Below, in pieces: positions 15,107 through 25,372 of a stretch of 64,000 nucleotides of DNA. Under the pieces are notes generated by a model, which was not told the DNA's origin, did no database searches, and saw nothing but the letters and a program-made list of their open reading frames with translations. The first letter of the stretch is position 1. Each line of letters starts with the position of its first letter. Origin of the DNA: Spongiibacter nanhainus (GTDB lineage: Bacteria; Pseudomonadota; Gammaproteobacteria; Pseudomonadales; Spongiibacteraceae); NCBI RefSeq assembly GCF_016132545.1, contig NZ_CP066167.1, positions 1,143,001-1,207,000 on the forward strand. Direction: 5' to 3'. Made by a program: the position numbers and the translations under genes.

Positions 15107-17557
15107 CTATTCAGACAGATTCAACGTTTCAACGGTATCTGCTGCAATATCCGTTTCCAAATAGGGAAGTTTGATCCACTGTTTGGCCGAGTAGGCTTCG
15201 GTCATGTTCTTATAATAAGGCGAGGCCGGATCACTGGACTGTGAATAGGTGACGAAGCCTTCTGCAACGGGGTTGCCATTCTCATCCCAAGTAACGGCCT
15301 GAATGTAGCTGTTGCCATAGGTGATGTTGTAACCGTCTTCTTCCAGCCCGCCGTTGCGGGCATTGGCGATGGTGAATGAGCCTTCAAAGCCTTCTCCGCC
15401 AAAGATAGGGATAATGCTGTCGTGCACACCCGAGTGCTGAATCTGTCCCATGGGCGTGTCGAGTTCAAAGGGTGAGTCCAGTACGGCCTGAATGCCATCG
15501 GCAAAAGCGCTGGCCACGATAGGGTTGAGGACGTTCAGACTGGCAGGCGTGTTGACTGGGTCGGCAGCGGAAAAGGGCGTCAGCCAGCGGAGGTCGTCCG
15601 CCGGGGTGGCGATGGGAAGAGGACCAGCAATGCGGCGCCAAAATTCACGCCAGATATGTCCGCCGACCGATTCAAGATTGTTCTTACCATCCCAGGAGGC
15701 CAGTACTGCGCAGGCCTCGCTGGTGTCTACCAATGCACCGCCGGAGCTTGGCAGTGGTAGCGGCAAGGCGCAATAGCTGTCCAGCACTGACTGGCGTCCG
15801 AGCTGTTCAGACAGGACGGTGCTTTCCAGTGTGATTTCTTGCAGCGAATCCAGATCGAAGCGGTTACCCGGCCGGCCATCGCTGCCATCCAGACGCTGGA
15901 TGACTTGCTGCATGCAAAGGCGGGTACGCAGGGTGCGTTCGCTATCCTCGTCACCAATAATGGCGGCAAAGCCGGTCAGCGGCTCGGCCGGGTTGCTGAG
16001 CCAGTAGCTGTCATTGCAATTGTGAACCCAGTCGTTACGGGTGATTTTGGGCAAGTTGGCTGGTCCGAATATACCGGGCCGAGGGGCGTCGTCATCGCTG
16101 TCCCATTCGCAAGCTGAACGCGAACCATCCAGGATCGGCAGACCCGGCATCAGCTGATCCAGTGCCGTTTGCAATGGCAGTGCGCCACAAGTTTGTACCT
16201 TGGCGTCTGGGACATTTGGTACGACGGTGACGTCACCGTAATAGGCCGGTTTACCGGGGCCGGTGGCGGCGGTGTTGACCCAAGGTACACCCAGAACGCT
16301 ACCGTGCAAGGCGACAAACTCCTCGAAACTCTGTGCGCGGTTCCACCGAAAAAACTGGTTCATAAGACTGTCGTTTTCCGCATTGGCGTCGCGCAGCGTA
16401 TAGGCCTTGACGGGCGACCACTCAAGCACCGGTACGCCGGAAACAGCCAGTTCCAGCATCGGTCCATAGTGTGACCGATACAGAGTTCGAGTTTCAGTGG
16501 TGAGACTACCGTCTCCTTCCAAAATATCGATTGAGACCTCACTCGCCTCCATATCCCGCATTTCGCCGTCATAGAGATACTGGGTGGGATCCACCGGGTT
16601 CAATGTCAGTTCGTAAAATGTGAAGCGGTAGGCTGTGGAGACGGTGTGACTCCAGGCGACATGCTCGTTGAAACCGATCAGTACTGCCGGTACGCCATAA
16701 AGGGATGCGCCCATGATCTCGGCATCGGGCAATTCCAGGTGCGTCAAATAGAGCCGCTCGGTACCTGTCCAGGGAAAGTGTGGATTGCCAAACAGCATGG
16801 ATTCCCCGGCGACGGCATCGGGCCCCAGTGCGTACATATTACTACCGATGGGTAATCCATCGGATAAGGGCAGGGCGCCAGGGTCCAGAGCGAGAATGTC
16901 ATCGAGTTCAACAGGTAGAGGAAGGTTGTCTGGTCCCGGAGGTTTGGCTTGTGAGACTTCGTTGACAAAGACAGAAGAGCTGGCCAGCAAAGTCAGTCTG
17001 AAGTATCGGCGGTACATGTCGTCCACCGTGATTTCGGTAATCCAAGCCTCATCGCGGCAGGCCAGGTGACGGCCTGGGTGGTCGCCAGCCTTAAGCTCAT
17101 TGACATAGCGATTGTAGCCGGCCACAAAGCCACGGGTGGCGTCGATTGCCTCCTGATCACTGTTTTTTAGTGGCGCGATGGCCTCATCGGTGGCGGTGAA
17201 TTTCCAGAAGAAGTCCGAGTCTACATTGTTGGCCGTAGAGCCGTTGGCCACGATGGTATAGGTGCCGTCGCGTCCCAGGTACCTGGCGCGTTCGCCGCGA
17301 ATGGTTAACAGATCTTCTGCCAGTACGCAGAGGTTATCTTGTGCATGCACATAGCCGTAGCCATAGCCCATATTGGCGTAATTGCTGGCTTTGATATGGG
17401 GAATACCAAAGGACGTGCGGCGCACCTCGACGTTGTATTGGGGGCTATTGCCGTCACCATTATCACTGTTGTCTGAGCGGCCAGAGCTATTTCCGCCGCC
17501 ACATGCCGTCAGTATGACGAGGCTGATCCCAGCCATGACTAGTCCGAAAGCACGCAT
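15107..17557 (-). CDS. Lipoprotein penicillin/acyl-homoserine-lactone acylase family (Ntn-hydrolase)
   Basis: 816 residues. The N-terminus is a lipoprotein signal with lipobox LTAC (lipidation at C19), then a Gly/Ser/Asp-rich linker. An alpha-like chain (about 40-235) precedes GSNMYALGP; S239 would be the N-terminal nucleophile freed by autocleavage after G238, as in PvdQ/QuiP and aculeacin acylase. GNPHFPW and the FNEHVAWSHTVSTA segment are typical of the beta chain. It should cleave an amide and release an amine from an N-acyl substrate at the cell envelope. The substrate is not predictable. A good Shine-Dalgarno (AGGGGAG) precedes the ATG. It is 236 bases beyond the BCCT gene and may have its own promoter. 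Confidence 0.85.
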   Translation of the reverse strand: MRAFGLVMAGISLVILTACGGGNSSGRSDNSDNGDGNSPQYNVEVRRTSFGIPHIKASNYANMGYGYGYVHAQDNLCVLAEDLLTIRGERARYLGRDGTYTIVANGSTANNVDSDFFWKFTATDEAIAPLKNSDQEAIDATRGFVAGYNRYVNELKAGDHPGRHLACRDEAWITEITVDDMYRRYFRLTLLASSSVFVNEVSQAKPPGPDNLPLPVELDDILALDPGALPLSDGLPIGSNMYALGPDAVAGESMLFGNPHFPWTGTERLYLTHLELPDAEIMGASLYGVPAVLIGFNEHVAWSHTVSTAYRFTFYELTLNPVDPTQYLYDGEMRDMEASEVSIDILEGDGSLTTETRTLYRSHYGPMLELAVSGVPVLEWSPVKAYTLRDANAENDSLMNQFFRWNRAQSFEEFVALHGSVLGVPWVNTAATGPGKPAYYGDVTVVPNVPDAKVQTCGALPLQTALDQLMPGLPILDGSRSACEWDSDDDAPRPGIFGPANLPKITRNDWVHNCNDSYWLSNPAEPLTGFAAIIGDEDSERTLRTRLCMQQVIQRLDGSDGRPGNRFDLDSLQEITLESTVLSEQLGRQSVLDSYCALPLPLPSSGGALVDTSEACAVLASWDGKNNLESVGGHIWREFWRRIAGPLPIATPADDLRWLTPFSAADPVNTPASLNVLNPIVASAFADGIQAVLDSPFELDTPMGQIQHSGVHDSIIPIFGGEGFEGSFTIANARNGGLEEDGYNITYGNSYIQAVTWDENGNPVAEGFVTYSQSSDPASPYYKNMTEAYSAKQWIKLPYLETDIAADTVETLNLSE

Positions 17558-17793: not shown

Positions 17794-19395
17794 TTAATTC
17801 TGCGAGGCTACAGCAGCCATAAGTTGCCGCTCGTGCTGAAGCCCTTTGTATAAATTGACGCAGATGAACAGCAATATCAGGGTAAAAGGCAAGCCAGCTG
17901 CGATGGTGCCGGCTTGAAGTGCATCCAGTGCCTGTGTTCCGCCGATGTATAGTAGTACCGAGGCGATTAACCCCTCTATCGCGGCCCAGAAAATACGCTG
18001 TGGTATCGGTGCGTCCAATTTGCCGCCCGAGGTGATGGAGTCAATCACCAATGATCCAGAGTCGGAAGAGGTGATGAAGAACACCAGCACCAGGAAAATA
18101 CCAAAGGTAGAGATGACGTCAGTCCAGGGCAGTTGCTCCAAAAGGTAAAACATCGACAGGGCGATGTTATCTAAACCGTTCGCCAGTTGCCCCACACCAT
18201 TTTGCGATTGCTCCAGTGCGCCGCCGCCAAAAACACCCATCCAAAGCAGTGTGACGGTAGTGGGAATAAGTATGACAGCACCCAGGAATTCTCTGACCGT
18301 ACGGCCGCGGGATATTCGCGCAATGAACATGCCGACAAAAGGCGACCAGGCTACCCACCAGGCCCAGTAGAATACCGACCACGCATGTAACCAGTCCTCG
18401 TCGTCTCGACCGACCCAGTTACTCAGTTCAAAGAAATAACCGGCGTAGGATTTACCGGTATTGACCACCCAGCCCATCAAGCTCAGTGTTGGCCCCGCCA
18501 GTAAAACAAAGATGAAAAGCAGAGCGGCGATTGCCATATTGACGTTACTAAGTACTTTCACGCCGCCGTGGAGCCCCCGCGCTACTGATGCAATGGCAAT
18601 TAAAGTGATGCCTGCAATGATGCTTATTTGCAGGGGAATGGTGTCTTCCAGGCCAAATACAAACTCCAGGCCTGCGCTAGCTTGCTTTGCGCCAAGGCCC
18701 AGAGAGGTGGCCAGTCCAAATAGGGTTGCCAATACGGCGAGGGTGTCGATGATATGGCCGGCCCATCCCCAGGTTCGCTCGCCAAGAATGGGGTAGAAGG
18801 CCGAGCGCAGGGTCAGCGGCAGATTTTTGTTGAAGCAGAAAAACGCCAGCGACAGACCGACAACGGCGTAGATTGCCCAGGCATGGAGGCCCCAGTGGTA
18901 CATAGTGGCCGCCAAGGCCAGGTCCGCAGCGGTGTCGGTATTGGCCTCGACGTTAAACGGGGTGCCGTACCAATCGCTGTAGTAGGCAATCGGCTCTGCA
19001 ACACTCCAAAACATCAGGCCAATGCCCATCCCAGAAGCGAATAACATGGCCGCCCAGGACAACCCCGAAAAGTCAGGTGTGGCCTCGTCGCCGCCCAGGC
19101 GTATCTTGCCCATCGGCGACAACGCCAGTGCCAGACAGAAAAGGATGAACACGTTGCTGCTGGCCATGAACAGCCAGTCAAAGGTCTCGATAGCCCAGCC
19201 CTTAGCGCCGCTCAGCAAGGTCATTGCCTGCTCTGGCATAAGTAAGGTTGTGCCGACAAACGCAAATATAAACAGCTCACTAATGAAGAACACTGGGTTG
19301 TGGAGGTCAAAGCCAAAAGCTTGAATGTTGTCCTGGCCCACTACATAGTCTGTGGCGTAGTGATTGCTGACTCGTTTGCCTTGAGTGTCCGTCAT
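17794..19395 (-). CDS. BCCT-family transporter (betaine/carnitine/choline; possible DMSP carrier)
   Basis: 533 residues with about 12 hydrophobic segments. Family signatures are GMGIGLMFWSVAEP, WAIYAVVGLSLAFF and the Trp-rich YWAWWVAWSPFVGMF segment followed by RISRGRTVREF. BCCT carriers move quaternary ammonium or sulfonium zwitterions across the inner membrane with Na+ or H+. The gene lies 117 bases after the methyltransferase on the same strand. The neighbours point to a sulfonium osmolyte such as DMSP as cargo; choline or glycine betaine remain possible. No long C-terminal osmosensory tail is seen. Confidence 0.92.
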   Translation of the reverse strand: MTDTQGKRVSNHYATDYVVGQDNIQAFGFDLHNPVFFISELFIFAFVGTTLLMPEQAMTLLSGAKGWAIETFDWLFMASSNVFILFCLALALSPMGKIRLGGDEATPDFSGLSWAAMLFASGMGIGLMFWSVAEPIAYYSDWYGTPFNVEANTDTAADLALAATMYHWGLHAWAIYAVVGLSLAFFCFNKNLPLTLRSAFYPILGERTWGWAGHIIDTLAVLATLFGLATSLGLGAKQASAGLEFVFGLEDTIPLQISIIAGITLIAIASVARGLHGGVKVLSNVNMAIAALLFIFVLLAGPTLSLMGWVVNTGKSYAGYFFELSNWVGRDDEDWLHAWSVFYWAWWVAWSPFVGMFIARISRGRTVREFLGAVILIPTTVTLLWMGVFGGGALEQSQNGVGQLANGLDNIALSMFYLLEQLPWTDVISTFGIFLVLVFFITSSDSGSLVIDSITSGGKLDAPIPQRIFWAAIEGLIASVLLYIGGTQALDALQAGTIAAGLPFTLILLFICVNLYKGLQHERQLMAAVASQN

Positions 19396-19512
19396 AGTGT
19401 GACCGATGGGGGATAGTGGAGGGGGCTGCCCACACCCGCGATAGAGCGAGTGGGGCAGTGGAGGAAGTGAATACTTACCTCTGCGTTGGGGGCTAACTCA
19501 CAGCGAGCAGGG

Positions 19513-20442
19513 TCAGGCTGATATTGGCTTGCCGTGGATAACGCAGACTTCGTGGTAAAGCGGGGCCTCCGGATTCTCGGTAATCAGTGCTTGTGCCTGA
19601 CAGGCCGAAAGAGGCTGAGTGGCGGCTTTGTCAGCGTAAAAATGGCACTTAAATTCGCTATTTAAGGTGGTGCCTTGAAGGGTTTTTTCCAGGGCAATAA
19701 AGAATGAAATGTCGGTGCCGCTGTGCTGCTCTACAATTTGCGAGCTAATTTTTTCTGGCTCAAAACCGTTGGCTTTAAAACAATCAAAAATAATATCTGA
19801 GCCGATGCGGCAACCGAAGTTCATCACCACTTCTGCGTGAGGGGCGTGTTCGCGCACCCGCTGTAGTAAGGCCTCGTTCAAACCCAAGCCAACGGAGTTG
19901 AAGGGGTACTCATCGAACGCTGTCCAGGGGTAATAGTGGGCTATATGATCGTCGGCGACATTATCCGCGCCCTCTGCAAGGGGGACCTGCAGGCGCTCGC
20001 GAAATGTGGAAATGCCGGGGTCGCCGGGCTCACCGACTTGGGGCAAAGAGCCGATAACGACATCGGCCTCGGCCACCAGTGCCCTGGCTTCATCGGTGTC
20101 GATAAGGCTTACCGGGCCGCGAACAGGGTTAAAACGGTGGGCGAAGTCCGGCGCTAAAGAGCGGACATTTGATTCGGCCAATTCAATGAGCCGGGGGTCG
20201 AGGTCGCTGCCGGAGACTTCGTCGGCGCCGCAAACCGTCAATAAAAAGGCGGCATTGATGCCGGTGCCGATACCTACTTCGTAGGCCGTTTTTCCCTGGA
20301 GATTTGCCGCTTTAAGCCCTTTTTGAAAGGTGTCAGTCCACGGGTCTTCCGGATCGAAGGCAAAGCTGGGAACTTCCGGTGAAACCGGCTCATTCTTGGG
20401 AGGGGAGCTAGGCTGTGTTTCAAGGGTGTCTTTAGTCAGCAT
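19513..20442 (-). CDS. mmtN: Methionine S-methyltransferase, MmtN/plant-MMT N-domain type
   Basis: 309 residues. The ATG at 20442 is preferred because AAGGAA lies 9 bases upstream; an ATG 24 bases earlier has no good site. The class I SAM fold has motif I YEVGIGTGIN (54-63) after PEDPWTDTF, an acidic SGSDLDPR loop, GSLPQV (121-126), VGLGLNEALL and GTDISFFIALEK (222-233). A C-terminal tail has QPLSACQAQAL (257-267). These blocks align in order with plant methionine S-methyltransferase (EDWSFTF, ELGCGNGW, GCIPQI, FGLGL, ADTDIS, QPICARTAWAYL). Predicted reaction: Met plus SAM to S-methylmethionine. It sits between a PLP decarboxylase and a BCCT carrier. Confidence 0.78.
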   Translation of the reverse strand: MLTKDTLETQPSSPPKNEPVSPEVPSFAFDPEDPWTDTFQKGLKAANLQGKTAYEVGIGTGINAAFLLTVCGADEVSGSDLDPRLIELAESNVRSLAPDFAHRFNPVRGPVSLIDTDEARALVAEADVVIGSLPQVGEPGDPGISTFRERLQVPLAEGADNVADDHIAHYYPWTAFDEYPFNSVGLGLNEALLQRVREHAPHAEVVMNFGCRIGSDIIFDCFKANGFEPEKISSQIVEQHSGTDISFFIALEKTLQGTTLNSEFKCHFYADKAATQPLSACQAQALITENPEAPLYHEVCVIHGKPISA

Positions 20443-20521
20443 CGTGTCTCGTTCCTTAACGGCCATCTGGAACGGCCAGTGATTAGAATGGATCTAGCAA
20501 GCAAGCTTTGTTCTGAGGGTT

Positions 20522-21748
20522 TCAGTCGAGCAGTAATACTTCCTGCACATCGCCGCGCAGGCAGTGTTCTGAACGCATGGAGGCGGCGTAGCCGCCGGCA
20601 TTGATCAGCGCGACTATGTCGCCTTCCTCGGGCTTGGGCATGGGGTGGTTGACGGCCCACTTGTCCAAGGCTTCATTGACATTGCCCACTACGGTGTAGT
20701 GATTTATTTCGGCGGTGCTCAGCTGCGTGGGAACAGGTTCGCAGGGCAGCCCGTAGAAGGCGGGCTCCATAGCCAGGTTGAAGCCGGCATTCAAACCGAG
20801 GAATTGCACGTCTTTGCGCTGTTCTGTGTAGGTGACTTCGGTGAGCAGTACACCGGCGTCCTTGATCAGAAAGTCGCCGGGTTCCACGGCGATATTGAGC
20901 CCGCTGTCGGCGTAGGTGCCCGCCAAGACATCTGCCCAGCGCTGTAAATTTAAGGGACTGTCCTCTTTGGTGTGGGGAACCCCCAAGCCGCCACCGATGT
21001 TGAGTTCTTGCAGGTCGGGCAATAGTTCTGTGAAGCGGCGGCTGGCGTTGAGCACGTCGGCCAGTTGATCCAGTTCACGGTCGAGATAGCCACAACCGGC
21101 GTGAAAATGAACCCGCACGATTTTAAGTTGATATTTCTCCGCGATGGCCAGAGCTTCGGGGATACGGTCGAGATAGATACCAAACTTGGTGGCCTCTACG
21201 CCGCTGTATTGCAACAAGTCGTTGTCTGAATAGCCGATGCCGATATCGGGGTTGACCCTAATACCCACCTCTCTGCCCGGGCAGGCCTGTCCCAAGCGCT
21301 CCAGAGAGCTAAGGGAATCCAGATTGAGACGCAGACGGTCAAATTTGGACAGGGTTTCTATGTCGCGCTTGCTTAACGATGTGCCTGTGAAAGAAATATT
21401 CTGCTCAGCAAACCCACAAGACAAGGCGTGGACCAGTTCACTGGGGGAGCAGACATCCGCGCCGCATTTACCCTGAGACGCGAGATAGGTGAGTAACTTG
21501 GGGGAGCGATTGGCCTTGATAGCGTAAAAAATACGATGATCCAAGCCGACCTGGTCAAATGCCCTGTGTAGAGCATCCAGCTTTTGTATCACTCTGGGAG
21601 CGCGAATGACATAAGCCGGTGTGCCCACTTTTTCCGCCAGTGTTGTCAGGTCGCACTGGCCGAGCTGCAGTCGATTGTCATGAAATTTGAGATCATCCCG
21701 CTGCCACCATAGGTTAATTGGCGAATTACTGTCGTTTATCTCGGGCAT
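20522..21748 (-). CDS. Fold-type III PLP decarboxylase; candidate S-methylmethionine decarboxylase
   Basis: 408 residues, related to diaminopimelate and ornithine decarboxylases. The PLP lysine is K78 in FYAIKAN. HFHAGCG, NIGGGLGVP and EPGDF bind the cofactor phosphate. The C-terminal NAGGYAASM keeps the Tyr (Y387). At the position of the conserved active-site Cys (CESGD in DAP decarboxylase) it has N358 in GNVNEALD, so it is unlikely to be an ordinary LysA. GGAGG precedes the ATG. It lies 79 bases upstream of the methyltransferase. The context suggests decarboxylation of S-methylmethionine to DMSP-amine; another basic amino acid is the alternative. Confidence 0.75.
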   Translation of the reverse strand: MPEINDSNSPINLWWQRDDLKFHDNRLQLGQCDLTTLAEKVGTPAYVIRAPRVIQKLDALHRAFDQVGLDHRIFYAIKANRSPKLLTYLASQGKCGADVCSPSELVHALSCGFAEQNISFTGTSLSKRDIETLSKFDRLRLNLDSLSSLERLGQACPGREVGIRVNPDIGIGYSDNDLLQYSGVEATKFGIYLDRIPEALAIAEKYQLKIVRVHFHAGCGYLDRELDQLADVLNASRRFTELLPDLQELNIGGGLGVPHTKEDSPLNLQRWADVLAGTYADSGLNIAVEPGDFLIKDAGVLLTEVTYTEQRKDVQFLGLNAGFNLAMEPAFYGLPCEPVPTQLSTAEINHYTVVGNVNEALDKWAVNHPMPKPEEGDIVALINAGGYAASMRSEHCLRGDVQEVLLLD

Positions 21749-21806
21749 GGTATCGCTTGCCTCCGAATTAGGTGGTCGGAGCTCCCTTATTGTTCATGGC
21801 GTCGTT

Positions 21807-21866
21807 GCTAATGACGTAGTAGCTAATGATGTAGTTACTAATGATTTAGTCGCTAATGGCGTACTG
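21807..21866. repeat. Four 15-bp imperfect tandem repeats upstream of the decarboxylase
   Basis: The unit GCTAATGAYGTAGTN occurs four times head to tail: GCTAATGACGTAGTA, GCTAATGATGTAGTT, ACTAATGATTTAGTC, GCTAATGGCGTACTG. It lies 59 bases from the decarboxylase start, within its likely leader/promoter. It could be a repeated operator or a slippage product. Confidence 0.75.
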
Positions 21867-21933
21867 TGGCTATTCAACTCGCGGGGTATTACTGCGGCAT
21901 AGGCCGCACCACCCCACGCTGGAAGTTGGTGTA

Positions 21934-22116
21934 TTACACCAATTGGACGATTGCCGCCTGACGCCCCAATGATTCCATCAATTGTTCACGGTTACAGGGT
22001 TTACTAACGGATACGTTAAGCGTGTCTGATTGCTTACTGGTGCCAGTCATCAGAGATTGCTTGATGCGTAGCAGTACCAGTTCGGTGGAAAGCCCTTTGC
22101 AATTAATCGCGGTCAT
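21934..22116 (-). CDS. Small conserved-context protein of 60 residues, possibly TusA-like
   Basis: The ATG at 22116 is preceded by AGGAGA at ideal spacing, supporting a real gene between the aminotransferase and the decarboxylase. The protein starts TAINCKGLSTELVLLRIK and has a helix followed by a DTLNVSVSKP strand. This outline resembles the beta-alpha-beta fold of TusA/SirA proteins, but the Cys-Pro of TusA (GLxCP) is replaced by GLSTE. Cysteines are C6 and one near residue 41. No function is assigned; it could be a sulfur carrier relative or a small partner of the neighbouring enzymes. Confidence 0.55.
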   Translation of the reverse strand: MTAINCKGLSTELVLLRIKQSLMTGTSKQSDTLNVSVSKPCNREQLMESLGRQAAIVQLV

Positions 22117-22187
22117 CGTGTTTTCTCCTAGTAGTGTTGCCCAATTAAACGTGTTTTAACTTTGCGGGTCTCAGCAAGTGATCGGAA

Positions 22188-23597
22188 TTAATGCAATAGA
22201 CCAGCCCTTAAGTCATTCTGGGCACGCGTCAGCGCAGAGCCCAGAGTGGCGATAATACGGTCGATATCAGAGCGCTCCACGATGAGTGGTGGCGACATGA
22301 TGCACAGGTTTTCATAGGGTCTGACCAGCAGGCCGTCCTGTTCGCAGTACTGATCCACGCGCTGGGCCAGAGCCATGTTCTTCGCTGTTGGGCCGACTTC
22401 GTCGCCGGTCCAGCATTCGACACAGGCCATGAGATGGTCGCCGCGAACGGTGTAGACAATGTCGGAGTCGATTAGAGTGCGCAGTTGCTCGATAAAGTAG
22501 GGGCCGACTTCCCGGACATGTTGGCAGATGCCGTCGCGCTTCATGATCTCGATATTTTTAATGGCAGTGGCACACACAATGGGGTGCCCGGAATAGGTAT
22601 AACCGTTGGAGAACACCGGCTTTTCCTCGGGGGCGCCAGCGCTGATGGCGTCGCAGATTCGGTCTGAGATCATCACTACCCCCAGCGGTTGATAGCCGGA
22701 GGTAATCCCTTTAGCGCTGATAATCATGTCCGGCACTATGTCGAAGTGGGCTTCTGATGCGAAGAAGTGTCCCAGGCGGCCGAAGCCGGTGACCACTTCG
22801 TCAGAGATATATAGAATGTCGTGTTTGCGGCAGATTTCGCGGGTCGCTGCCTGATAGCCCTGTGGCGGCACCAGTACGCCGCCTGAGGCTAGGATCGGCT
22901 CGGCAACGAAGCAGGCGATATTGTCGGCGCCCAAACGGGCAATTTCTGCTTCCATCTCATCCAATAGCGTTTGCAGCCGCGACGCCGCGCTTTCCTTGGC
23001 GATGTCGGGATCGTACTGAGGGCTGGAAAGGTGGTGGACAAACTCGCTCTCATACTGAAACAGAGTGCGGTCGGCGGCTTTACCGCTGAGTGAGGCAGCA
23101 AGGTAGGTGCTGCCGTGGTAGGCATTGCGCCGGGATAAGACGTGGCGCTTGCTGTCCCGACCTTGAGCGGCGTAGTAGTAATGGGCGATACGCACCGCTG
23201 AGTCGATAGCGGTGGAGCCGCAGGTGGTGAAGTGGGCTCGATTTAAATCACCGGGTGTTAACACTGCCAGCATCTCGGCTAGCTGCGCCGAAGGGGCGCT
23301 TGAGACATCCCCAAACGGCGTGTAGTAGGCCATCTTGCGGGCCTGGCTGGCCATGGCTTCAATGAGCTCCTCGTGGCCGTAGCCCAGCGTGACACACCAC
23401 ATACCGCCGATGGCGTCGAGATACTGTTTACCCTTGGAGTCGTAAACGTGGACGCCCTTGGCGTGTTGTATCATCAGCGCGTTTTCGTCGCCGAGGGTAC
23501 TTAGGTCGGCCCAGGGGTGGAGAAGGTGTTTGGCATCCGCGGTTTGAAGAGAGTCGTGCTCAGTTGTGTCGATAAGCGCGTCTCTTTTCTCTAGCAT
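22188..23597 (-). CDS. Class III (omega) aminotransferase; candidate DMSP-amine aminotransferase
   Basis: 469 residues from the ATG at 23597; a TTG 9 bases upstream is possible. PLP fold type I: the substrate-entry segment HPWADLSTLG, GSTAIDSAVRIA, the cofactor aspartate in YISDEVVTGFGRLG and the Schiff-base lysine in DMIISAKGITSGYQPLG. The family includes putrescine-, taurine- and beta-alanine:pyruvate aminotransferases, which act on terminal amines. With a PatD-like dehydrogenase upstream and the Met methyltransferase downstream, it is predicted to turn DMSP-amine into DMSP-aldehyde. Putrescine or another diamine is the alternative. Confidence 0.88.
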   Translation of the reverse strand: MLEKRDALIDTTEHDSLQTADAKHLLHPWADLSTLGDENALMIQHAKGVHVYDSKGKQYLDAIGGMWCVTLGYGHEELIEAMASQARKMAYYTPFGDVSSAPSAQLAEMLAVLTPGDLNRAHFTTCGSTAIDSAVRIAHYYYAAQGRDSKRHVLSRRNAYHGSTYLAASLSGKAADRTLFQYESEFVHHLSSPQYDPDIAKESAASRLQTLLDEMEAEIARLGADNIACFVAEPILASGGVLVPPQGYQAATREICRKHDILYISDEVVTGFGRLGHFFASEAHFDIVPDMIISAKGITSGYQPLGVVMISDRICDAISAGAPEEKPVFSNGYTYSGHPIVCATAIKNIEIMKRDGICQHVREVGPYFIEQLRTLIDSDIVYTVRGDHLMACVECWTGDEVGPTAKNMALAQRVDQYCEQDGLLVRPYENLCIMSPPLIVERSDIDRIIATLGSALTRAQNDLRAGLLH

Positions 23598-23941
23598 GCT
23601 GACCAAAACTCACCACCTGCTCTTGGTTATGATTGATAAACCCCTAGGCGCAAGGGTCGTGCCAATCACCGTCTCGATCCGATTAGCCGCCAGTTCCACT
23701 TGGTAAAAGGTTTAGAAGAACATCGAATAACTAAGAAATATCAAGGCATTAGCGGGGTGACAAAGATCACCCCCGAAGATAGATAAAAGTGAAATAACGT
23801 TGATTGGTGTGCCGGTAGCTTTTGGTGCGAAGTTCGCCGAAGGGCACTATGAGCGTGCAAGTAAGTCGTGTGCAATTGGGCAGTGCGCAAGAAAGCCGCG
23901 CTTTTCGATCCAGCAATTTTGCCTGGAAGGTCAATGTCCCC
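23598..23941. other. 344-bp intergenic region between the aldehyde dehydrogenase and the aminotransferase
   Basis: No convincing gene. It holds a CRP-like palindrome (23754-23773) and AT-rich sequence toward the aminotransferase start, so it probably carries a promoter for the aminotransferase and genes after it. Confidence 0.6.
23754..23773. promoter_or_regulatory. CRP-like operator candidate
   Basis: GGGGTGA-CAAAGA-TCACCCC contains the GTGA-N6-TCAC core of Crp-type sites with perfect 7-bp arms. It lies about 157 bases upstream of the aminotransferase ATG. A Crp-family regulator is encoded at 9723-10376. Confidence 0.5.
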
Positions 23942-25372
23942 TCAAAGCTCGTGGTTGATCATAACGTGGCGTACTACGGTGTAGTCTTCCAGTGCGTAGA
24001 TGGACATATCCTTGCCGTAGCCGGATTGTTTCAAGCCGCCATGGGGCATTTCGTTACAGAGCATAAAGTGAGTATTCACCCAGGTGCAGCCATAGCGGAG
24101 CTCTGCGGCGGCTTTCATGGCTTTTGAGACATCTTTGGTCCATACCGAGGAAGCCAGGCCGTAGTTGGAGTCGTTGGCCCACTCGATAATGTTGTCGCTG
24201 TTTTGGTCGAAGGGGGTCACCGAGACCACCGGGCCGAACACTTCCCGTTGGACTATTTCGTCGTTTTGCAGCGCACCGGCAACAACAGTAGGTTGGTAGA
24301 AAAAGCCGGAATCCGAGGCCGCACCGCCGGTGGTGATCTCAATATGAGACGCATCGTTTGTACGCTCCACAAAACTCGCCACTCGCTGTTGCTGGCGTTG
24401 CGATATCAGCGGTCCGATCTCGTTCTCCGTGTCATCGTCGAGGTTGTAGCGTATCGACGCCACGGCGTCGGACAGATCGGCGACAAACTTGTCGTAGATC
24501 GATTTATCTGCATAAATCCGGCAGGCAGCGACGCAATCCTGCCCAGCATTGTAGTAGCCGTAGGTGCGTATGGTGTCGATGGCGCTTTTCAGATCGGCGT
24601 CGTTATAGACAATAACCGGGGCTTTACCGCCCAGCTCTAGGTGCGTGCGCTTCACGCTGTCGGCGGCGGCCTGAATCACTTTCTTGCCGGTGCCGACGTC
24701 GCCAGTAATGGACACCATGTGCACCCCCGGGTGCTTGATAATGGCGTTGCCTACGGTGTGGCCCTGGCCCAGCACGATATTCACGACTCCTTCGGGCAAA
24801 ACTTCCGCCAACAGCTTTGCCATTTTTAGTGCCGTTAAAGGAGTCTGCTCAGAGGGTTTAAAAACCACGGTATTACCGCCTGCCAGGGCCGGTGCCAACT
24901 TCCAGGCCATCATCATCAAGGGGTAGTTCCACGGCGCGATCGAGCCCACCACACCCACCGGGTCCCGGCGGATCATTGAGGTAAAACCACTCATGTATTC
25001 GCCGGCTACTGAGCCCTGTAAATTGCGGGCGGCGCCGGCAAAATAGCGAAAGCAGTCGATAATCGGCGGCATCTCATCGTCGCGCATAGCCAAGATGGGC
25101 TTGCCACAGTCCAGGGCCTCCAGCTCGGCAAAGGCCTGGCTCTGGGCCTCCAGGCCATCGGCAATCGCCAATAAATAACGGGCTCGCTCTTCGGGGGTGG
25201 CCTTTGACCAAGACGGGAAGGCACGGGTGGCGGCCTCTACGGCCAGATCGACCTGGGCGAGGGACGCCTCGGGCAGCTCCGTGATTGGCTCTGCGGTTTT
25301 GGGATTGAGGATAGTCTCTGCCTCGCCTTCGCCCTTGACCAGGCTGGCGCCAATTAGCATCTGTGTATCCAT
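23942..25372 (-). CDS. PatD-like aminoaldehyde dehydrogenase; candidate DMSP-aldehyde dehydrogenase
   Basis: 476 residues, AGAGGA upstream of the ATG. The NAD-dependent ALDH fold is complete: [28 protein letters not shown], the general base E246 in LELGGK and nucleophile C280 in NAGQDC. The sequence closely resembles E. coli PatD (4-aminobutyraldehyde dehydrogenase), including [13 protein letters not shown] and [10 protein letters not shown] near the C-terminus. That family accepts aldehydes with a positive charge 3-4 atoms away, which fits DMSP-aldehyde or betaine aldehyde as well as 4-aminobutyraldehyde. It heads the minus-strand cluster with the aminotransferase. Confidence 0.9.

Follow-up and report, generated by a model that had tools for sequence, protein, structure and literature searches.

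A likely dimethylsulfoniopropionate biosynthesis cluster, probably acquired horizontally, in Spongiibacter nanhainus, and a small TusA-like gene that accompanies Group I mmtN

Background

Gene clusters built around Group I mmtN, which encodes a methionine S-methyltransferase, have been described for Novosphingobium BW1, Roseovarius indicus and other bacteria, and formation of S-methylmethionine (SMM) was demonstrated for the R. indicus enzyme (structure 7VVV; PMC9135737). Group I MmtN are defined there by >50% identity and by forming one cluster with other Group I MmtN. In Streptomyces mobaraensis, the enzymes SMMDC, DMSPAAT and DMSPADH catalyse the three steps that lead on from SMM to dimethylsulfoniopropionate (DMSP) (PMC12542666); its methyltransferase is counted under Group I mmtN in one report (PMC9135737) and, in conflict with this, is treated under the name MSMT as the counterpart of BurB in others (PMC12542666, PMC7496086). 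BurB, the methyltransferase of the Burkholderia bur pathway, belongs to the SET-domain enzymes, and BLASTP shows no significant similarity between it and MmtN (PMC12542666). The methylation route itself is thus already described, and MmtN from gammaproteobacteria is in print (PMC9135737, PMC8004995).

Here we analyse a stretch of 64,000 nucleotides from Spongiibacter nanhainus (contig NZ_CP066167.1, positions 1,143,001 to 1,207,000; hereafter the window, in whose own numbering coordinates are given), in which an earlier note, made from the sequence alone, had proposed a DMSP cluster of five genes. The locus resembles the Group I mmtN clusters (PMC9135737) in its MmtN, which is more than 50% identical, and in the linked candidate downstream enzymes, and it is unlike them in three ligand residues of MmtN (Ser121, Gly132 and Asn250), in a same-strand gene for a BCCT carrier, and in that the 17 other species of its genus that were searched lack mmtN. 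With the MSMT/SMMDC/DMSPAAT/DMSPADH route of S. mobaraensis it has in common a DapDC-like decarboxylase, an aminotransferase and a dehydrogenase beside the methionine methyltransferase gene (PMC12542666). It shares decarboxylase, transaminase and dehydrogenase steps with the bur pathway, whose SET-domain BurB is unlike MmtN and whose product goes to malleicyprol (PMC7496086, PMC12542666).

Results and discussion

We consider it likely that the locus is a DMSP biosynthesis cluster which was probably acquired horizontally; the kind is known and the host is new, and the cluster is real and probably working. Its features are the following:

19513..20442, minus strand: mmtN homologue, 309 amino acids (aa); predicted methionine S-methyltransferase of Group I (phmmer match to 7VVV, tree)
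20522..21748, minus strand: fold-type III pyridoxal 5'-phosphate decarboxylase, 408 aa; predicted SMM decarboxylase (PF02784 and PF00278)
21934..22116, minus strand: small TusA-like gene, here named tusL, 60 aa; CPxP cysteine missing; may be a partner of MmtN
22188..23597, minus strand: class III aminotransferase, 469 aa; predicted DMSP-amine aminotransferase (PF00202, PRK07036.1)
23942..25372, minus strand: PatD-type aldehyde dehydrogenase, 476 aa; predicted DMSP-aldehyde dehydrogenase (PF00171, PRK13473.1)
17794..19395, minus strand: BCCT carrier, 533 aa; possible sulfonium or betaine transporter (PF02028, TIGR00842)
21796..21863, strand not applicable: 15-bp repeat in 4.5 tandem copies, between tusL and the decarboxylase gene

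The five open reading frames (ORFs) reported in the earlier note are intact and all lie on the minus strand, and family profiles agree with the classes it had named. From gene content, homology, co-occurrence and absence from the relatives searched, we infer reactions, product and roles as follows: MmtN would form SMM from methionine and S-adenosylmethionine (SAM), the decarboxylase would convert SMM to DMSP-amine, the class III aminotransferase DMSP-amine to DMSP-aldehyde, and the PatD-type dehydrogenase DMSP-aldehyde to DMSP, while the BCCT carrier might take up DMSP, betaine or a precursor, and the TusA-like protein may act with MmtN as a subunit, an activator or a sensor of thiol state.

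The mmtN product matches the R. indicus methionine S-methyltransferase 7VVV with an E value of 1.7e-117 (phmmer) and 62% identity, and is 53-68% identical to Group I sequences, which places it above the 50% identity that defines the group. Pfam and NCBIfam cover it poorly, Pfam giving a weak match to Methyltransf_25 and no SET domain. In a tree of 27 rows (26 of Group I, the window included, plus the locus L041, and none of Group II or III) it lies within Group I when L041 serves as outgroup; its nearest rows by path are those of Stappiaceae and of g547, a genus of alphaproteobacterial type, and its exact place and branch are unresolved. A protein-glutamine or other methyltransferase was rejected, 7VVV being the sole strong match among solved structures, as were a BurB-type enzyme, for want of a SET domain, and a plant-type methyltransferase (Group III), given the length of 309 aa and the absence of a fused C-terminal aminotransferase domain. 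The grouping with an unrelated family that the earlier note had named as the refuting outcome did not occur. The SAM-site features GxGxG, Asp69, Ser101 and Leu102 (7VVV numbering) are kept, and so is Glu127, a position at which four further rows of Group I carry Thr, Ser or Cys.

The neighbouring enzymes were compared across 26 Group I loci (the window, L003-L015 and L029-L040), which are those found by our scans; the scan of genome contigs used two peptide patterns, and no actinobacterial locus is among them. The order aminotransferase III, tusL, decarboxylase, mmtN, here called S-type, is found in the window and in L003, L004, L008, L009, L010, L012 and L014. The decarboxylase and the aminotransferase thus belong to the set that accompanies Group I mmtN in 8 of the 26 loci, and because mmtN has homologues of both at its side in seven further loci, the grouping of these genes is not a matter of chance. 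The decarboxylase is matched at 62-70% identity by six mmtN-linked decarboxylases and at 51% by the L041 enzyme. A housekeeping LysA was rejected for it: identity to LysA-like genes is only 28-32%, and the genome has a separate LysA-like gene elsewhere, which is 32% identical. It reads G-N-V-N-E-A-L-D where the DapDC structure 2p3e reads G-P-I-C-E-T-G-D, a stretch whose Cys we take to be an active-site residue of DapDC. The aminotransferase (668 bits to PRK07036.1, cut-off 618) is 68-78% identical to six mmtN-linked homologues. The dehydrogenase scores 776 bits (cut-off 615) with the NCBIfam aminobutyraldehyde dehydrogenase model PRK13473.1, has 4dal as its nearest solved structure (E 1.5e-235), and shares 64% identity with the dehydrogenase adjoining mmtN in L009 and 52% with its L041 counterpart. 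For the BCCT carrier (PF02028, E 1.8e-177; TIGR00842 above cut-off) the nearest solved structure by sequence is the trimethylamine transporter 8zw8 (E 7.3e-142), with DddT 21ff at E 3.1e-56, and its nearest records in the plasmid collection come from Halomonas, Photobacterium and Vibrio (62.5-60%), the best being Halomonas sp. PA16-9 (62.5%). Its role in transport may be of the kind proposed above.

Several observations weigh against this reading of the locus, among them three ligand residues of MmtN. Ser121 replaces the Cys121 of 7VVV, a position at which every one of the 26 other rows, that of L041 among them, has Cys; Gly132 replaces Arg132, which is Arg in 23 of the 26 other rows (Lys in L009, Thr in L011, a gap in L041); and Asn250 replaces Glu250, where the other 25 Group I rows have Glu or Asp and L041 has Gln. 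Cys121 has been assigned to SAM binding and Arg132 and Glu250 to methionine binding, and Cys121 and Arg132 are listed as present in all MmtN, as shared residues and not as a grouping criterion (PMC9135737); the Lys and Thr of L009 and L011 show that Arg132 is not universal. The single mutants R132A and E250A retained >50% of activity, with the Michaelis constant (KM) for methionine raised about 8-13-fold (PMC9135737), and in the window both positions are altered together. Further points of this kind are that a strong dehydrogenase homologue lies nearby in only 2 of the 8 S-type loci, so that dehydrogenase linkage is not general; that, within the flanks taken, none of the 25 further Group I loci has a BCCT homologue next to mmtN; that the likeness to S. 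mobaraensis rests on its published steps (PMC12542666) and not on its enzyme sequences; and that no DMSP measurement for this organism was found.

These substitutions would fit a methyltransferase of poor activity, or one whose substrate has shifted to a different thioether or amino acid, in which case little DMSP or a related sulfonium acid would be made; the 25 remaining aligned rows of Group I contain none of the three. We regard such a drift as unlikely. All ORFs are intact, Glu127 and the SAM motif are retained, and in identity tables (which omit L004, whose aminotransferase is in two pieces) the divergence of MmtN is proportionate to that of the neighbouring decarboxylase and aminotransferase, both of which are close to the mmtN-linked set. 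General decay of MmtN is not indicated because of this proportion, and the window MmtN is most likely, if not certainly, an SMM synthase. There is little to suggest that the cluster supplies DMSP for incorporation into a larger secondary metabolite, the situation in Burkholderia malleicyprol and in the mmtN loci linked to non-ribosomal peptide synthetases (NRPS) or polyketide synthases (PKS): a type I PKS lies downstream in L004 and NRPS linkage is known for some mmtN loci (PMC9135737), yet there is no NRPS or PKS among the eight proteins between 15107 and 26912 to which the profile scans extended. PatD-type dehydrogenases, class III aminotransferases and BCCT carriers, all present here, are classes typical of polyamine or betaine catabolism, but a polyamine or amino-acid degradation operon that a methyltransferase adjoins by chance is scarcely credible in view of the homology to MmtN and of the order aminotransferase-tusL-decarboxylase-mmtN in seven other loci.

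mmtN is rare among relatives. It was found in 1 of 21 genomes of the family, in 2 of 390 of the order (with no more than 37% identity in the second), in 1 of 369 of the class and in 3 of 398 of the phylum, and a separate search found tusL in 1 of 21 family genomes. The cluster is flanked by guaA and tadA, which are 15.7 kb apart in the window, compared with 1.2 kb in the sibling G018, 2.1 kb in G010 and 2.4 kb in a sibling of another genus; tadA was found in 10 of 16 sibling stretches, with guaA-tadA gaps of up to 14.7 kb. Since the length of the gap differs among siblings, the site is variable. For the flanking GuaA, the best 19 of the 25 plasmid-collection matches listed with an organism name come from gammaproteobacteria, at 67-73%, ahead of Neisseria. 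Not one of the 12 genes between guaA and tadA has a match at 1e-10 in the stretches from 16 of the 20 siblings (15 of the same genus, 1 of another), a threshold too strict for the 60-aa tusL. Because these genes have no match in the sibling stretches taken, and mmtN and tusL each occur in 1 of 21 family genomes, the cluster was probably acquired horizontally.

The interpretation in the earlier note is borne out in part. Where it had claimed every step plus transport, the four enzyme classes of the route are present, and transport by the BCCT carrier was overstated, there being no such carrier beside mmtN in the flanks taken of the other 25 loci. Its statement that the same four classes occur in the bur pathway holds for the three downstream classes and fails for the methyltransferase, which is unrelated to the SET-domain BurB (PMC12542666). 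The view that mmtN clusters are not widely described in this lineage is right as to their rarity in genomes and goes too far as to novelty, gammaproteobacterial MmtN having been published (PMC9135737, PMC8004995). Absent from it were tusL (21934-22116, minus strand) and the three ligand-residue substitutions.

tusL is a 60-codon ORF between the aminotransferase and decarboxylase genes with AGGAG ahead of its ATG, and each of the 26 Group I loci examined has a relative of it upstream of the decarboxylase gene or of mmtN. The tusL profile (A3) was built from 12 of these loci, which leaves 14 matches independent of training, those in L003 and L004 having first been seen by eye. Searched as a single sequence, the window tusL finds 23 of the 26 loci (itself included), and those of L008 and L015 find 24. 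When all ORFs of at least 55 codons around the window, L008 and L015 were searched against the 26 loci, frames overlapping mmtN or tusL being set aside, mmtN (26) and tusL (23-24 by single sequence) were alone common; next came aminotransferase I and hydroxyacid dehydrogenase (18) and aminotransferase III and decarboxylase (8), and the guaA frame of the window matched 13 loci by general family similarity. In genus g547, mmtN occurs in 12 of 29 genomes, and a strong tusL match (E 5e-23 or better) in exactly these 12; there are two further weak matches near 8e-4, one of them in a genome without mmtN. The ratio of nonsynonymous to synonymous substitution rates (dN/dS) of tusL has a median of 0.12 and a maximum of 0.19 in the 65 usable of 66 g547 pairs, which are related sequences. 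A chance ORF was rejected on the grounds of this conservation and dN/dS.

The predicted structure of TusL is beta-alpha-beta-alpha-beta (pLDDT 84), with TusA/SirA structures ranking 2, 5 and 6 among its matches, and a D-C-x-G-L ... R-x-K-Q stretch aligns with TusA. Unlike TusA, whose sulfurtransferase cysteine lies in the motif CPxP, the 12 A3 sequences have no CPxP cysteine at that position, whereas the two TusA proteins of the genome have the motif, and the L094 and L095 proteins have CPEP and CPLP; TusL is also C-terminally shorter than the TusA proteins of the genome and below the Pfam cut-off. The TusA family PF01206 is the sole family matched by two or more members; 6 of the 12 match it with E values no higher than 1, the best at 6.6e-4, below cut-off, while the window TusL and two g547 members have no match. 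Profile-profile comparison of tusL with TusA is weak (probability 28), and the best match of the profile in the PDB, the SirA-like 3hz7 (E 0.21), is not significant.

Of the remaining loci, most show a second arrangement. In the N-type (L005, L006, L007, L013, L015 and L029-L040), an aminotransferase I, a BetI-like TetR regulator, a 2-hydroxyacid dehydrogenase and a class II aldolase-family protein are encoded beside tusL and mmtN; L011 has the dehydrogenase and aminotransferase only. An example is L030 (3094-8873), to which 16 loci are similar. This gene set suggests transamination and reduction of SMM instead of an initial decarboxylation. The decarboxylases of the three N-type genomes that were tested, G1066 and the genomes of L005 and L006, are at LysA level only (at most 30%), and no decarboxylase of the mmtN-linked type was found in the 29 genomes searched, with a search verified on positives. 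Because tusL is present in both arrangements, it tracks MmtN and not one downstream route. It is conceivable, and we propose it tentatively, that Group I MmtN has an obligate partner, a dedicated TusA-like protein minus the sulfurtransferase cysteine (subunit, activator or thiol sensor), which stayed with mmtN while the entire downstream pathway was exchanged. The linkage counts come from related loci and not from independent events. If it is true, the published kinetics of R. indicus MmtN, which has a millimolar KM when purified (PMC9135737), describe an incomplete enzyme; as a sign of a missing partner, the high KM is weakened by the likewise millimolar KM of purified BurB (PMC12542666).

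A second full cluster is present in L041 (3053-8072; genome G181, of the same order). Its MmtN-like protein is 37% identical to that of the window, with a gap around 7VVV residue 132, and dehydrogenase, decarboxylase and aminotransferase genes follow close together on one strand, without a TusA-like gene; none was found within the 12 kb taken. Some loci appear broken: in L003 (8636-10866; plasmid pRGUI01 of Rhodovulum sp. P5) mmtN is annotated and reads in two pieces, and in L004 (6961-8378; plasmid p_4 of Rhizobium lusitanum) the class III aminotransferase is in two overlapping frames. One TAG was counted inside the mmtN match of L026 (G1113).

As to the finer layout of the window, an AAGGA precedes 20442 and favours this start of mmtN over the start of a longer ORF at 20466. 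tusL and the decarboxylase gene overlap by 8 bases in L003 and L004, where the window has the gap with the 15-bp tandem repeat. A PvdQ-like acylase of the penicillin-amidase family (15107-17557; NCBIfam 553 bits, cut-off 950) adjoins the cluster in the same variable region. No Rfam family, a SAM riboswitch included, reached its gathering score in the window. The promoter-like sites, 4 against an expected 6.2, are uninformative; 16 terminator-like sites were found where 7.9 are expected, 14 of them inside genes.

Conclusions

The cluster adds one genus to those predicted to produce DMSP from methionine and suggests that the DMSP route moves as a block. The unusual ligand residues of its MmtN offer a probe of which methionine contacts the enzyme truly requires. 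No mention of the tusL companion of mmtN was found in the open-licence papers searched, a scope outside which earlier primary reports on the route lie. This small gene carries more weight than the cluster itself: if MmtN needs tusL, then assays with mmtN only, gene surveys and heterologous DMSP production would all miss a component.

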